Origin: a virus
Direction: 5' to 3' (one strand)
Length of the DNA: 21,690 bases
Virus record (IMG/VR): IMGVR_UViG_3300027754_000498
Span: 1-21,690 of that record
Shown here: positions 1,166-12,689 of the stretch, one piece after another
Numbering within the stretch: position 1 is the stretch's first letter
Layout: each line of letters opens with the position of its first letter
The notes under the pieces: model-generated
Told to the model about the DNA's origin: nothing
The model's database searches: none
Seen by the model: the letters and a program-made list of their open reading frames with translations, nothing else
Position numbers and translations under genes: made by a program

Positions 1166-1342
1166 ATGGATAATATAGTGATAGAGATAACTAGAGATGA
1201 GTTGGAGTTAATCCGCAAATCTTTAAGAACTCAAGAGAGTTGGTATGTAAGGTCAGACTTTAAGAGTATGGCTACTGCTACTAACTTGCTAAGAAGTAAA
1301 GTAAATGATATAATGATAGAACTAGAACTGCCTATAAAGTAA
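1166..1342 (+). CDS. Hypothetical small helical protein
   Basis: I chose the ATG at 1166 (58 residues) instead of an upstream TTG at 1121, because the longer N-terminus overlaps the previous gene and is basic and unlike a protein start. GAGGCGCAAGAG just upstream may serve as binding site. The product is mostly helical and charged (ITRDELELIRKSLRTQE), with no Cys or membrane segment. Its stop lies 9 bases before the amidoligase gene, so it is co-transcribed with it. Family unknown. Confidence 0.55.
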   Translation: MDNIVIEITRDELELIRKSLRTQESWYVRSDFKSMATATNLLRSKVNDIMIELELPIK

Positions 1343-1351
1343 GGAGTTAAT

Positions 1352-2569
1352 ATGCCAGATGATATAGAATACAAGGAGTGCCACTCTTGTAATGGTGATT
1401 ACAAGGCTGACGAATTAGCCACTAATAGAAATGGTGAGTTGTTATGTGAGGATTGTCGTATCTATTGTGAGCATTGTGAGGAGTATGATTACTCCGATAA
1501 CGCAAGGCATATAGAGGGTGTCGGTATGTATTGTGAGGTATGTGCCGATAATAATACCTTCTATTGTGAGAGTTGTTGTGATAATTATGCTGATGATGTT
1601 AATAGTTATGAGATAGTTAATAGGGGTGTGTATTGGTGCGAGAATTGTTGCTCTAATAATGCTAGTTGGTGCGACAGTTGTGAGCATTATACTGATGGCG
1701 ATTGTAATAATTGTAGTGCTGGTGTGCTACCTTATAGCCATAAGCCTGAGCCTATCTTTCACGGCTCTAGTAAAGAGGGGTTATACTTTGGACTAGAGTT
1801 AGAGATGGAGATAAGCGATATGAAAGATAAGTTTAACAATGCGGTAGAGTATGTATCTGACCGCTTAGATAGGGATTGGATTTACTTAAAGAAAGATGGT
1901 AGTATTGGTAGCACAGATGGTCGTGTTGTCGGACCTGAAGGCTTTGAGTTAGTATCTCACCCCGCTTCACTTAATTACTGGAGTGGTGAGAATAGTCAGA
2001 AGTTATGGGATACTTTAGATGGACTAAGGACTAGGCACAATGCTAGGTCGTGGAACGCTAAGTCTAACTGCGGTATCCATATACATATAAGTAGAGCAGG
2101 GTTTAAGGGTGGCGCACATACTCATAGGTTCTTAGCCTTCGTGTATAAGAACACTAAGAATATGAAGCGATTTGCGGGTAGAGATTGTAATAAGTATGCT
2201 ACCTTCACAGATGTTTGGCAGTATAATGAGGACAACATACCTTATATGTCCTTCGCTGGTAAGTTAGCGAAGCGTAATTATAGTGAGCGTATGAGTGCCG
2301 TCAATACTCTCAATGATGATACGATAGAGTTAAGGTTCTTTAGGGGAACGACACAACCTAAAGGAGTATTAGCAACGATAGAGTTGGCTCACGCTATGGT
2401 AGAATATACCCGCGACCTGACCCTATCTGATGTTAAGTTAGGTATGCTAGGTTGGGAGTGGTTCGAGGATTATATCCAAGTTAATAATGGATTGTATCCT
2501 AACGCTTACGATAGGCTACCTAAGTTAAGTAAGGTAGATATAAATAGACCTGAGTTGTTAAATGCTTAG
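1352..2569 (+). CDS. Amidoligase (COOH-NH2 ligase, glutamine-synthetase-like fold) with N-terminal zinc-knuckle array
   Basis: The 405-residue product has two parts. Residues 1-121 carry a dense series of CxxC pairs (10/13, 32/35, 39/42, 61/64, 72/75, 96/99, 107/110, 118/121), probably several structural zinc sites. Residues about 135-380 match the Amidoligase_2 family: GLELEME (147-153), KDGSIG (181-186), FELVSHP (198-204), CGIHIHIS (240-247), YSERMSAVN (310-318) and TIELRFFRGT (324-333). In this family Glu and His residues bind metal and the Arg/Asn motifs bind ATP and an acyl substrate; members join a carboxylate to an amine. The substrate here is unknown. A strong AAGGAG precedes the ATG. 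The next gene, 14 bases on, is a class II glutamine amidotransferase, so the pair probably works together, using glutamine-derived ammonia or a peptide amine. Family assignment is firm; pathway is inference. Confidence 0.85.
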   Translation: MPDDIEYKECHSCNGDYKADELATNRNGELLCEDCRIYCEHCEEYDYSDNARHIEGVGMYCEVCADNNTFYCESCCDNYADDVNSYEIVNRGVYWCENCCSNNASWCDSCEHYTDGDCNNCSAGVLPYSHKPEPIFHGSSKEGLYFGLELEMEISDMKDKFNNAVEYVSDRLDRDWIYLKKDGSIGSTDGRVVGPEGFELVSHPASLNYWSGENSQKLWDTLDGLRTRHNARSWNAKSNCGIHIHISRAGFKGGAHTHRFLAFVYKNTKNMKRFAGRDCNKYATFTDVWQYNEDNIPYMSFAGKLAKRNYSERMSAVNTLNDDTIELRFFRGTTQPKGVLATIELAHAMVEYTRDLTLSDVKLGMLGWEWFEDYIQVNNGLYPNAYDRLPKLSKVDINRPELLNA

Positions 2570-2583
2570 GAGAGGAGGTAAGT

Positions 2584-3438
2584 ATGTGTTTATTGGTAGT
2601 GTGTAATCCTAATTCCACACCTAGTAAAGATGAACTAAAGCAGGGTGCGTGTAAGAACCCACACGGCTTTGGCTTTGCGATAGATACTGGCGAAGGTATT
2701 ATATCTGAGCGCAGTATGTCCGCTAAGAAGTCTATCGCTAGGTTCTTAGAACTTAGAGCGCAGTATCCTAGTGGCTATGCTATGTGGCACGCTAGGTATG
2801 CTACTCACGGAGTTAAGAACGAACTGAACTGCCACCCATTTAAGGTAGCAGGGCAGTATGATACTTACTTAGCACACAACGGAGTGTTAGATATTCTAAT
2901 ACCTAAAGATGATAAGCGTAGTGATACTAGGATTATGGCAGAGGAGTTGTTGCCACGATTAGGTGGCGTGTCTGCCCTAGATGATGACTATGTATATGAT
3001 ATGATAAGTTCGTGGGCTAATGGTAATAAGATAGCGGTAATGACCAATGACCCTAGCGCATTATACAAGATGTATATTGTCAATGAAAGCGCAGGTAGTT
3101 GGGATACGGAAGGTGTGTGGTGGAGTAATAACTCACACAAACCTGCCCCGCCTATCGCTACCTATACCTATGAACCTAGCGTGTATGATATAGTAGCAGG
3201 AGATAAGCACTTTAGTCCTACCTTATATGAGGATAACAAGTTCGAGTGTCCTAATTGTGAAGCACTAATAGACTTATGGGAGAGCGAACTCTACTGCTTG
3301 ATGTGTGAGTGTTGCTTTGATTGTAGCGCACAGTTCTTAGATTGTTTATGCTATAATCCACAGACTAAGGATATGCTTACAGATGAATACGGATTTTATA
3401 AAGAGAAGTGGTATAGTAAAGAGCCACTTGACTTCTAG
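2584..3438 (+). CDS. Class II glutamine amidotransferase (Ntn-hydrolase) with C-terminal Cys cluster
   Basis: The 284-residue product begins MCLLVV, so removal of Met would expose Cys2, the catalytic nucleophile of class II (GATase-2) enzymes. Further family motifs are HGFGFA (27-32), HARYATHG (69-76, with the glutamine-binding Arg), NCHPF (82-86), AHNG (97-100, oxyanion hole) and SDTR (113-116). These enzymes hydrolyse glutamine to glutamate and ammonia, or transfer the amide. The length suits a stand-alone YafJ-like enzyme plus an extra C-terminal segment (from about residue 220) with CPNC and a CLMCECCFDC cluster, perhaps zinc-binding, echoing the Cys-rich N-terminus of its neighbour. An excellent GAGGAGG site precedes the ATG. 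It follows the amidoligase closely and is very likely its partner. Confidence 0.85.
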   Translation: MCLLVVCNPNSTPSKDELKQGACKNPHGFGFAIDTGEGIISERSMSAKKSIARFLELRAQYPSGYAMWHARYATHGVKNELNCHPFKVAGQYDTYLAHNGVLDILIPKDDKRSDTRIMAEELLPRLGGVSALDDDYVYDMISSWANGNKIAVMTNDPSALYKMYIVNESAGSWDTEGVWWSNNSHKPAPPIATYTYEPSVYDIVAGDKHFSPTLYEDNKFECPNCEALIDLWESELYCLMCECCFDCSAQFLDCLCYNPQTKDMLTDEYGFYKEKWYSKEPLDF

Positions 3439-3865: not shown

Positions 3866-4006
3866 ATGCTAGAGGATTACGATTGGACTTCTTACATTAG
3901 TAAGAGGGACACGCAACACCTGACAGAGCAGGAGATTAAACAGATGGTAAAAGAATTAACTTCAGCAGTTGGTAGTATCTGCTTCGAGTATGGGATACAT
4001 AACTAA
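3866..4006 (+). CDS. Hypothetical small acidic protein
   Basis: A 46-residue ORF from the ATG at 3866, chosen over an upstream in-frame ATG at 3818 because AGAGAGG lies a few bases before it and the longer version would translate through the stem-loop at 3820-3845. The product is acidic and helical (LEDYDWTSYI, then LTEQEIKQMVKELTSAVG). Its TAA overlaps the ATG of the WhiB gene (TAATG at 4004-4008), so the two are probably translated together. Function unknown. Confidence 0.5.
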   Translation: MLEDYDWTSYISKRDTQHLTEQEIKQMVKELTSAVGSICFEYGIHN

Positions 4007-4419
4007 TGGGTAATAAATCTATTGATACATATATCTTTGATGATAAGAACTTAGATATAAGTAATGGGTTGTGCGTTAATCACGACGACCCCGACCTATG
4101 GTTTGCTGGTGAGATAGACTTACTTGACACTAAGACTAGTGTTAATAGGAACTCACCTGCCACTAAGGCTGAGGTAGATAAGGCTATCGTTGCCCTATCT
4201 GTATGTAAGAATTGTCCCGCTAAAGATAACTGCTTACAACTAGGCAGTCAAGGCACACAGATATACTATGGTATATATGGTGGCACTATGGCAGGAGAGA
4301 GATTAGTAGTAGCAGGTATGTCTACTAAGAACTCTACTAATAAGAATAGAATTGCCTTCGCACGGAAGGTAAGAAAGACAATGAAAGAAAGGGGTATGAG
4401 TGGAAATCAAACAGTATAA
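4006..4419 (+). CDS. WhiB-family iron-sulphur transcription factor
   Basis: The 137-residue product has the four-Cys pattern of WhiB proteins: Cys23, then Cys67, Cys70 and Cys76 (CKNCPAKDNC), which bind a [4Fe-4S] cluster. Downstream GIYGG (89-93) matches the G[V/I]WGG turn that contacts the sigma factor, with Tyr in place of the usual Trp. The tail is basic and helical (ARKVRKTMKERG), as expected for the DNA-binding end. WhiB proteins are found in Actinobacteria and their phages, where they bind sigma A region 4 and redirect transcription; some phage copies block host WhiB2-type septation control. The stretch between the first and second Cys (44 residues) is long for the family. Host assignment of the window rests largely on this gene. 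Confidence 0.88.
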   Translation: MGNKSIDTYIFDDKNLDISNGLCVNHDDPDLWFAGEIDLLDTKTSVNRNSPATKAEVDKAIVALSVCKNCPAKDNCLQLGSQGTQIYYGIYGGTMAGERLVVAGMSTKNSTNKNRIAFARKVRKTMKERGMSGNQTV

Positions 4420-4580: not shown

Positions 4581-4982
4581 ATGAAAAATAAAATAGTATT
4601 GCTACTTGTCTTGGGCTTAACAACCATAGCAGGTATAAGATTTGCTACCCCTACATATAAAGCACCTACCAATCCAATAATTGAGGTTGACTGGCGTGTA
4701 GAGGATAGCAAGGCTTACGCACAAGATATGTTATCCGAGTGGCAATATAAAGAATGGTTGTGCCTTAATAAATTGTGGACTAAAGAAAGTAACTGGCGAC
4801 CTACTGCTTATAACAAAGTTAAAGTAATGGGTAAGAATGCTGGAGGTATTCCACAATTATTAGGGCTCGACCCCAAGACACCACCAACTTTACAGATAGA
4901 CAGAGGGTTGTCTTATATCTATTACAGATACAATACCCCTTGTAAGGCGTGGAAGTTCTTTAATAAGAATGGATACTACTAA
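4581..4982 (+). CDS. Secreted SLT-like muralytic protein
   Basis: The 133-residue product starts with a short basic end and a hydrophobic segment (residues 5-19), a signal peptide or anchor. The remainder has the pattern of actinobacterial lytic-transglycosylase-like domains: WLCLNKLWTKESNWRPTAYN (59-78, with the presumed catalytic Glu69), GGIPQL (88-93), QIDRGLSYIYYRY (105-117) and PCKAW (120-124). Such domains cleave the glycan strand of peptidoglycan. Cys61 and Cys121 could form a disulphide outside the membrane. It lies in the early plus-strand block, not with the endolysin and holin, so a role in wall remodelling or in entry is as likely as lysis. The AAGGG site is very close to the ATG. 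The domain call is made from motif shape. Confidence 0.72.
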   Translation: MKNKIVLLLVLGLTTIAGIRFATPTYKAPTNPIIEVDWRVEDSKAYAQDMLSEWQYKEWLCLNKLWTKESNWRPTAYNKVKVMGKNAGGIPQLLGLDPKTPPTLQIDRGLSYIYYRYNTPCKAWKFFNKNGYY

Positions 4983-7484: not shown

Positions 7485-7850
7485 TTACTTGTCCCACTTT
7501 CCTCTAAGAACTAGCAACCCTATGATTGCATAGTTTGCCATATCCTTGAAAGAATCTTCAAGTGATTCGTGTTCAGGATTGGTAGCACTACCATATAAGT
7601 TATTGATACGTGCTAACTTATCGTGCATCCGAACTCTTAATCCATTGAGCGCACCGCCAGGTGCATCAGCAATGTTCTTAGACCCATAGTCCCTATGCTT
7701 TGACATTAATAAATCTAGTAACTCTTGGAAAGTATGCGCTACTTCTGACTCAAAAGAGGTACTGTCAGGGTAACTACGAGATTCCCATCCGTCTTCTGTA
7801 TTTGACTTATATGGAAACCTTGCTCCTCCAAGTGGATTATAATCTGCCAT
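7485..7850 (-). CDS. DUF1599 / Nmad1-like protein
   Basis: A 121-residue product with the signature of the DUF1599 family (nucleotide modification associated domain 1): KHRDYGSKNI (about 55-64), GLRVRMHDKLARINNL (70-86) and LEDSFKDMANYAIIGL (98-113). The fold is all-helical and MazG-like; family members occur with nucleotide-processing and DNA-modifying genes, but the reaction is not established. It sits in the replication block beside the phosphoesterase, so a role in the nucleotide pool or base modification is plausible. ATG start; TGA of the upstream gene lies three bases away, with AAGGGGGAG forming a strong ribosome binding site. Confidence 0.75.
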   Translation of the reverse strand: MADYNPLGGARFPYKSNTEDGWESRSYPDSTSFESEVAHTFQELLDLLMSKHRDYGSKNIADAPGGALNGLRVRMHDKLARINNLYGSATNPEHESLEDSFKDMANYAIIGLLVLRGKWDK

Positions 7851-12135: not shown

Positions 12136-12591
12136 TTAAGGGCGAGCAACGCCCATTACTAGGGAGTAGGCACGTTTCTTTAGATACACACCATCTCCGT
12201 TTGATTGACTGCCCTTAGTATCCCCTGAGGTATTACCCTCATAGACCATAAGGTATTTCTTTCCATCGTTACTAGCACAGATACCAACGTGGTCAGCCTC
12301 TGCATCAGCATCAAATTGGAAGAAAACTATATCTCCTGCTTCGGCTTTGCCGACTGGCACTATCTTGCCTTTACTTGTAAACCATTTAAGTCCTGCTTGA
12401 CAGGAAGCAAACCCTTTAGCAGTTTGAGCCGCTATCTTTGAGGCTAATCCTGCTTGGTCATAACACCAAGATACAAACATTGCACACCAAGGGTTGTTAT
12501 TAAGTCCATACCACTTGCCATACATACTGTCATTGTTCTTGCCTACCTCTTGGTATCCAAGTTGTGACTTTGCTATATCTACTACACTCAT
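12136..12591 (-). CDS. CHAP-domain endolysin
   Basis: A 151-residue product of CHAP (NlpC/P60-like amidase) type: PWCAMFVSWCYDQAG (34-48, catalytic Cys36), AGDIVFFQF (85-93) and ADHVGI (99-104, catalytic His101), then YEGNTS (117-122). It cleaves a peptidoglycan peptide or amide bond. There is no separate wall-binding domain, so it is a single-domain lysin. I chose the ATG at 12591 because it overlaps the stop of the preceding small ORF (ATGA) and GGATGG lies 8 bases before it; an ATG four codons earlier is possible. No signal peptide, so it depends on the holin. Confidence 0.87.
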   Translation of the reverse strand: MSVVDIAKSQLGYQEVGKNNDSMYGKWYGLNNNPWCAMFVSWCYDQAGLASKIAAQTAKGFASCQAGLKWFTSKGKIVPVGKAEAGDIVFFQFDADAEADHVGICASNDGKKYLMVYEGNTSGDTKGSQSNGDGVYLKKRAYSLVMGVARP

Positions 12592-12689
12592 ATTGACATC
12601 CATCCCTGATACTCGGCCTCTGGATTATCCAGTAGCCATTGCTGCCTTAATTTATTCTGGTGTTCCCAGTCAATCTCATTACTCATCAT
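12588..12689 (-). CDS. Small hydrophilic protein
   Basis: A 33-residue ORF (two adjacent ATGs; the second, at 12686, is equally possible), with Trp/Gln/Glu-rich sequence (IDWEHQNKLRQQWLLDN). It overlaps the endolysin start by four bases and lies 2-10 bases from the end of the membrane-protein gene. Too short for domain assignment; similar short ORFs are common in phage lysis regions. Confidence 0.45.
   Translation of the reverse strand: MMSNEIDWEHQNKLRQQWLLDNPEAEYQGWMSI

Follow-up and report, generated by a model that had tools for sequence, protein, structure and literature searches.

A compact version of the phage amidoligase-glutamine amidotransferase pair with putative zinc fingers recurs across phages and bacterial genomes

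We analysed a stretch of 21,690 bases, in the following called the window, which is an entire IMG/VR record of virus class and may be a genome fragment. Its source is described as a freshwater virus of actinobacteria. On the plus strand, among small genes, lie the genes of an Amidoligase_2 protein (AL) and of a class II glutamine amidotransferase (GAT), and the replication and tail genes run the opposite way. Respective coordinates are provided in Table 1. The host of the phage is likely actinobacterial, since the window's helicase matches almost only phages of Actinomycetota (Mycobacterium, Streptomyces, Propionibacterium, Rhodococcus, Gordonia) and since a WhiB-like gene (identified with Pfam) is carried. 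Two further regions are of note. Positions 500-1350, upstream of AL, are the least alignable part among close relatives, with small ORFs that come and go, and positions 12136-12603 encode a CHAP/NlpC-P60 protein, i.e., a probable endolysin.

Table 1. Features of the AL-GAT locus and of the DUF1599 gene in window coordinates.
Feature	Position	Strand	Basis
Shine-Dalgarno AAGGAG of AL gene	1341..1346	+	sequence
Amidoligase_2 (COOH-NH2 ligase) gene, AL, 405 aa	1352..2569	+	Pfam PF12224, phrog_22302, AlphaFold2 model
N-terminal LIM-like zinc-finger array of AL, residues 10-121	1379..1714	+	Cys conservation, LIM profile matches, model
Glutamine synthetase-like ligase core of AL, residues 140-403	1769..2560	+	VIA-align, Foldseek
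Motif GLELEME, residues 147-153; G147, E149, E151 invariant	1790..1810	+	198/198 relatives
Motif CGIHIHIS, residues 240-247; G241, H243, H245 invariant	2069..2092	+	198 relatives
Motif TIELRFFRGT, residues 324-333; E326, R328, F330 invariant	2321..2350	+	198 relatives
Shine-Dalgarno AGGAGGT of GAT gene, inside the 14-base gap	2573..2579	+	sequence
Class II glutamine amidotransferase (Ntn glutaminase) gene, GAT, 284 aa	2584..3438	+	PF13230, phrog_25883, GlmS profile
Glutaminase core of GAT, residues 1-182 (Cys2, R71, T74, H75, N99, G100, D114)	2584..3129	+	conservation
C-terminal 8-Cys tail of GAT, residues 222-256 (C222, 225, 238, 241, 244, 247, 254, 256)	3247..3351	+	Cys conservation
DUF1599 (nucleotide modification associated domain 1) gene	7488..7850		Pfam

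AL is matched by the Pfam family PF12224 (Amidoligase_2) with 25.2 bits (E 1.8e-5), i.e., above the curated cut-off of 22. Its best match within PHROGs is phrog_22302 (E 2e-27), which has no assigned function, and phrog_2443 connects AL with annotated amidoligases. Conservation was assessed on 198 AL sequences (77 from phages, 121 from chromosomes). Here, residues G147, E149, E151, E199, V201, P204, G241, H243, H245, R277, N318, E326, R328 and F330 are unchanged throughout, D182 is altered in one sequence and S184 in two. That is, the ExE, HxH and ExR active-site residues of Amidoligase_2 are invariant. The AlphaFold2 model of AL (77 rows) shows a mean pLDDT of 90.8, and residues 140-403 are confidently modelled as the ligase fold of glutamine synthetase (GS), GCL and YbdK. 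Respective VIA-align Z scores of this core are 13.3 to 1tt4, 13.2 to both GCL (2gwc) and YbdK (1r8g), and about 11-12.5 to many glutamine synthetases. Foldseek matches also include the Pup ligase PafA and the depupylase Dop, and no fold outside the GS superfamily came up in the structure searches. Sequence identity to GS, GCL, YbdK and PafA/Dop is about 7-14% and, in contrast to AL, this superfamily is without the zinc array and does not feature a partnered glutaminase.

GAT scores above the cut-off of the Pfam family PF13230 (GATase_4; E 4.8e-6) and just under that of PF13522. Its best PHROGs match, phrog_25883 (E 1.6e-36), also has no assigned function. When searched as a profile, GAT matches the glutaminase domain of GlmS (1xff; 5.5e-7), aligned around HxRxATHG, NxHP and HNG, as well as the glutaminase domains of PurF. 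Its motifs are Cys2, HARYATHG (residues 69-76), AHNG (97-100) and SDTR (113-116). The protein thereby carries the class II hallmark, i.e., a Cys nucleophile after Met1 combined with the glutaminase residues R, N, G and D. Across about 176 GATs, Cys2, R71, N99, G100 and D114 are kept, bar gaps and one odd sequence, and H75 is variable among the chromosomal copies. The initial annotation of this DNA had placed the two genes 14 bases apart and had described the family motifs of both enzymes as intact. Both reading frames are indeed found at their coordinates, each with a strong Shine-Dalgarno sequence, and all named motifs are present and invariant or nearly so in relatives. The expectation that the ATP and metal sites of AL would be intact is likewise borne out by the GS-like fold and the conserved catalytic residues.

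Both partners carry Cys-rich extensions, AL at its N-terminus and GAT at its C-terminus, as had been claimed from the start, and Cys are the most conserved residues there. The AL array comprises 16 Cys in CxxC pairs (10, 13, 32, 35, 39, 42, 61, 64, 72, 75, 96, 99, 107, 110, 118, 121). When the 76 nearest phage ALs are compared, hardly any of these Cys vary, in contrast to almost all other positions of the array; in the joint set from phages and bacteria, C61, C96 and C99 never change and a further nine Cys are conserved in at least 90% of the sequences. The earlier label of a zinc-knuckle array does not fit well. In the AlphaFold2 model, hairpins recur along the array, with short helices where the second CxxC of a pair lies, the spacing (C10-x2-C13-x18-C32-x2-C35-x3-C39-x2-C42-x18-C61-x2-C64) is LIM-like, and the AL profile matches LIM chains of the PDB (1b8t, 1.4e-5; 7lt9, 5.7e-5), where a compositional bias due to the Cys-rich sequence is possible. 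Given these observations, the array looks like LIM-like tandem zinc fingers that presumably bind zinc. A Pfam scan of AL gave no LIM match. The Cys of the GAT tail, which could hold two zinc ions, are retained by 74-75 of the 76 phage GATs and by 94-98 of the 101 chromosomal ones.

Mycobacteriophage Marvin, MW202733 and one gut phage contig also encode ALs with a Cys-rich N-terminus; GATs with a Cys-rich C-terminus were seen in Marvin as well as, with other spacing, in LUZ24 and RIO-1. Given that Marvin carries comparable extensions, they characterise the subfamily and are not peculiar to the window phage. The statement that such extensions are absent from the core families is therefore only partly true: it holds for the ALs of LUZ24 and RIO-1, which are without the array and are not detected by the AL profile of the window family, but relatives elsewhere are Cys-rich.

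The adjacency of AL and GAT is far beyond chance, i.e., both form a strongly linked unit. A GAT-led scan of viral contigs gave 80 loci, 79 of them with AL directly upstream; in the sole exception (L068), GAT begins 36 bases from the contig edge. When the scan is led by AL, GAT follows in 75/75 cases with enough downstream sequence. These phage sets (79/79 and 75/75) overlap and cover the closest relatives only. The respective AL scan of chromosomes, using one genome per species for 84,980 bacterial and archaeal species, gave 76 loci, mostly from Nocardia and other actinomycetes, with some from Clostridia and others. Counting all copies with enough downstream sequence, a class II GATase motif comes next after 107/114 chromosomal ALs, which confirms the anticipated linkage of both genes in relatives. 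No GAT motif was detected for one copy each in L180, L208, L171, L194, L200 and L237, and in L221 both genes share the single frame described below. The genes almost touch in phages and overlap in chromosomes. Seemingly lone amidoligases of Clostridia were rejected as such: a divergent class II GATase, missed by the profile, lies directly downstream in L227, L241-L243, L233 and others.

At 38 chromosomal loci, at least two AL-GAT pairs are arranged in tandem. Nocardia chromosomes (L170-L219) show two or three tandem pairs (e.g., L178:3825-10308 and L211:2187-9413), often at loci that also hold DUF4192, Prim-Pol or DprA-like genes. Among the array neighbours in general, we find DUF4192, Prim-Pol, SSB, DprA-like and DUF2637 proteins, which suggests that the arrays sit on integrative or plasmid-like elements; no integrase or transfer gene was found in the chromosomal stretches read. 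Within the family of one such Nocardia genome, any match is seen in 9/151 genomes and a full-strength match in 2, a sparse presence as expected for accessory DNA. Most chromosomal ALs, including many close homologues, are below the PF12224 cut-off and thus escape the present Pfam model; this applies to most of the tandem ALs of Nocardia, which are therefore probably unannotated. No anti-phage defence model of PADLOC matches the pair.

Some chromosomal or metagenomic loci deserve separate mention. In an Atopobiaceae locus (L221:5173-7215), AL and GAT form one frame of 681 aa, inside which the GAT portion begins with Met-Cys; this may be a natural fusion or just a missing stop codon. A Ruminococcus MAG (L230:5118-8366) encodes two tandem ALs followed by one GAT, and in Nocardia higoensis a PAPS-reductase-domain gene (L247:4070-4900) lies near an AL-GAT array. 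On a 3.3-kb contig (L168) in a Rhodobacteraceae MAG, the pair occurs as a close copy (58%); this contig probably stems from a phage and was assigned to the MAG in error.

The gene content around the pair bears on a possible DNA hypermodification, with the ligase attaching an amide or amino group to modified bases in phage DNA. The DUF1599 gene is present in 12/12 tested records of the window's phage group, and some other phages are known to use amidotransferases when modifying their DNA with deazaguanine (PMC6884629). Yet the further carriers of the dyad that were tested, namely Marvin, MW202733, MEP402 and four actinomycete genomes, have no DUF1599, i.e., it is confined to the window's phage group. 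Furthermore, a homologue of thymidylate synthase/hydroxymethylase was found in 0/19 records, and the chromosomal arrays are without DNA-modification partners among the neighbours with Pfam hits. We thus consider DNA modification highly improbable and reject it.

Within the phages, the AL gene is replaced by divergent alleles beside a near-constant GAT. This follows from a raised synonymous divergence (dS) of AL together with a sharp break of identity near the GAT start. When comparing the window with L004, helicase and phosphoesterase are 98% identical and the GAT core 92%, while AL shows 58%. At the DNA level, the identity is 0.64 at the AL end (2452-2601) and 0.98 in 2602-2751, starting just inside GAT. 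The dS is about 2 for AL, 0.47 for GAT and 0.4-0.6 for phosphoesterase, sigma factor, primase and helicase; WhiB (4006-4419) and a transglycosylase-like gene (4581-4982) show intermediate values. AL alleles divergent from that of the window are present in L004, L005, L012 and L025, where GAT and the replication genes stay close, and L010 and L017 share the AL type of the window (dS 0.7-0.8). Fast amino-acid evolution was rejected as the cause of the AL divergence, since the synonymous divergence is raised equally. With a dN/dS of 0.1-0.2 in all of their parts, AL and GAT are both under purifying selection. In our reading, it is the exchanged subunit, i.e., AL, that sets the target.

This target might be a protein. 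That is, the LIM-like array would recruit a specific host or phage protein, of which an acidic side chain or the C-terminus would be amidated or ligated to an amine, as PafA/Dop act on Pup. LIM-like modules are protein-binding folds, which is in line with the LIM chains matched by the profile, and PafA and Dop are among the related folds listed by Foldseek. Furthermore, the array shows higher variability than the catalytic core but keeps its Cys, a pattern expected of a recognition module. The profile matches of Cys-rich sequences are, however, prone to compositional bias, and in the flanks examined no gene follows the AL type, i.e., none qualifies as a co-varying target candidate. Overall, we consider protein modification unlikely.

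The pairing of AL and GAT is already known in phages and thus not new, such that the view of product and role as undescribed does not hold as a claim of novelty: the pair is part of the phiEco32 set, of the peptidoglycan modification cassette, and of the phages Marvin and MEP401/402. A set of amidoligase and GATase genes was proposed for phiEco32 by Iyer et al. 2009, as cited in PMC10580990. Homologous genes are termed 'peptidoglycan modification cassette' in PMC5498523, a proposed function that may block superinfection. As in the window, AL and a class II GATase are encoded together in the cassette, either at a short distance or as direct neighbours (LUZ24, phiEco32, RIO-1, PSA-HP1; Iyer 2009, Hardies 2013), e.g., as gp18-gp19 of LUZ24 (AL, GAT; 11 bases apart) and as phi32_84-83 of phiEco32. 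The cassette of LUZ24, phiEco32 and RIO-1 adds a second COOH-NH2 ligase (PF14395), a RimK-type ATP-grasp ligase and a gamma-glutamyl cyclotransferase (GGCT). In contrast, PF14395, PF06094 (GGCT) and PF08443 (RimK) were found in 0/27 records of the window's group, of which several have about 39 kb and which may be incomplete, and the three families were also not found in Marvin, MW202733, MEP402 and MEP401. Among the control phages, PF14395 was matched in 2/3 and PF06094 in 3/3, while the RimK controls were weakly matched, which renders the RimK test soft. Since the extra cassette enzymes were not found in the 27 records, the pair seems to suffice.

Marvin gp105-gp106 show the gene order of the window with about 31% (AL) and 33% (GAT) identity, and they share the Cys-rich AL N-terminus and the 8-Cys GAT tail. 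They differ by 79 bases between the genes, a shorter Cys array and an extra C-terminal AL domain. An AL-GAT dyad is also encoded by the Methylophilales phages MEP401 and MEP402 (PMC10580990), where the GAT start of MEP402 overlaps the AL end; here, the host is proteobacterial, the Cys content of AL is reduced and GAT is without the Cys tail. What is new is the two-gene version without the other cassette enzymes and with conserved Cys arrays on both partners, its spread to actinomycete chromosomes in tandem arrays, and the exchange of ligase alleles.

Small amides are the products of many amidoligases of the GS-fold and ATP-grasp types. The pair might aid infection by making an amide metabolite or peptide, without a macromolecular target, and a role in secondary metabolite synthesis was suggested for the Marvin genes (PMC10580990). 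However, conserved zinc arrays and ligase exchange are unexpected for a generic metabolic enzyme, and the phages show no further conserved biosynthetic gene next to the pair. A function in small-molecule metabolism is thus very unlikely in our view.

Class II amidotransferases yield ammonia from glutamine, and GS-fold ligases activate carboxylates with ATP. As the best explanation overall, with a probability of roughly 0.55, we propose that AL and GAT are a split glutamine-dependent amidotransferase for which the exchanged AL subunit sets the target. GAT would hydrolyse glutamine through its N-terminal Cys, and the resulting ammonia would pass to AL in a putative complex of both proteins. AL would use ATP to activate a carboxylate of the target and join the ammonia to form an amide; alternatively, a short amine may be ligated to the target. 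The LIM-like array and the Cys tail may hold the target and/or the partner. An acidic group of a host wall peptide or of a protein would be the most likely target, and its change may benefit the resident phage or mobile element, e.g., by keeping competitors out.

The chemistry on its own, i.e., that of a split amidotransferase, is quite probable. The catalytic residues are conserved in the 198 AL and about 176 GAT sequences, the AL core shows the GS/GCL/YbdK fold and GAT matches the GlmS and PurF glutaminase domains. In addition, the linkage of AL and GAT is near-obligate, including the single 681-aa frame of L221. AL-GAT is thus a real, conserved enzyme pair; the functional pair assumed by the initial annotation is supported by intact active sites, fold and linkage. 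With regard to the role as ammonia donor, GAT could in principle also be an amidase.

A two-protein precedent is given by MurT/GatD (PMC6085368), which shows the same split into an ATP-dependent ligase and a glutaminase, acts on a wall peptide, and for which MurT carries a Cys-rich zinc-ribbon-like insert that lies at the interface with the glutaminase and contributes to binding it. MurT has a Mur-ligase fold while AL has the GS fold, and GatD an internal Cys-His-Asp triad while GAT is a class II enzyme with N-terminal Cys, i.e., the two systems are analogous and not homologous. Given this analogy, it is a reasonable idea that the Cys-rich ends dock AL with GAT. Co-divergence of the two zinc arrays was also assessed, but we do not count it as evidence for docking: partial Mantel values of initially 0.33-0.42 fell to 0.04 in the phage group with quadratic controls, and the unrelated neighbours WhiB and orf3515 scored above the zinc-zinc signal. 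A fold model of the AL-GAT read-through of L013 (23 rows), in which GAT continues the frame of AL beyond the stop codon and which served as a modelling device only, showed a pLDDT of 54 and a pTM of 0.45; it is unusable as support for a complex and uninformative either way.

That the target of the split amidotransferase is a wall peptide has, in our estimate, somewhat less than even odds. The idea was taken over from the larger cassette, of which the remaining genes are missing in this case, and zinc-finger arrays fit a protein or nucleic acid equally well or better than a lipid-linked wall precursor. As a more specific variant, the pair may serve superinfection exclusion by amidating a carboxylate of the stem peptide (D-isoglutamate or meso-diaminopimelate), which would hamper other phages or lytic enzymes. 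Such chemistry is performed by MurT/GatD (PMC6085368), and homologous genes are assigned to the peptidoglycan modification cassette (PMC5498523; PMC10580990, citing Iyer 2009). The occurrence in phages and in actinomycete chromosomal elements fits a shared interest in exclusion, and the exchange of ligase alleles fits a contested target. On the other hand, no wall-binding domain was recognised, the zinc arrays suggest a cytoplasmic macromolecule, and the other cassette enzymes are missing, such that we regard this variant as rather unlikely.

Our preferred reading of a split amidotransferase can be extended to a mobile, self-contained system of targeted amidation, in which a constant glutaminase is combined with exchangeable, zinc-finger-guided ligase alleles for different host macromolecules, used by competing phages and actinomycete integrative elements, with tandem stacking of the pair in the latter. 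This extension is speculative and, taken as a whole, quite unlikely.

The AL-GAT pair is a two-gene zinc-finger form of a known phage gene set. The proposed wall-modification set of five to seven genes dates from 2009, and in the literature we found no experiment on any family member and no measured product. The two-gene form, which is also present in Marvin, a phage growing on M. smegmatis, narrows the question of the set's product. Taken together, the tandem arrays of actinomycetes and the exchanged ligase gene suggest that the target is contested.
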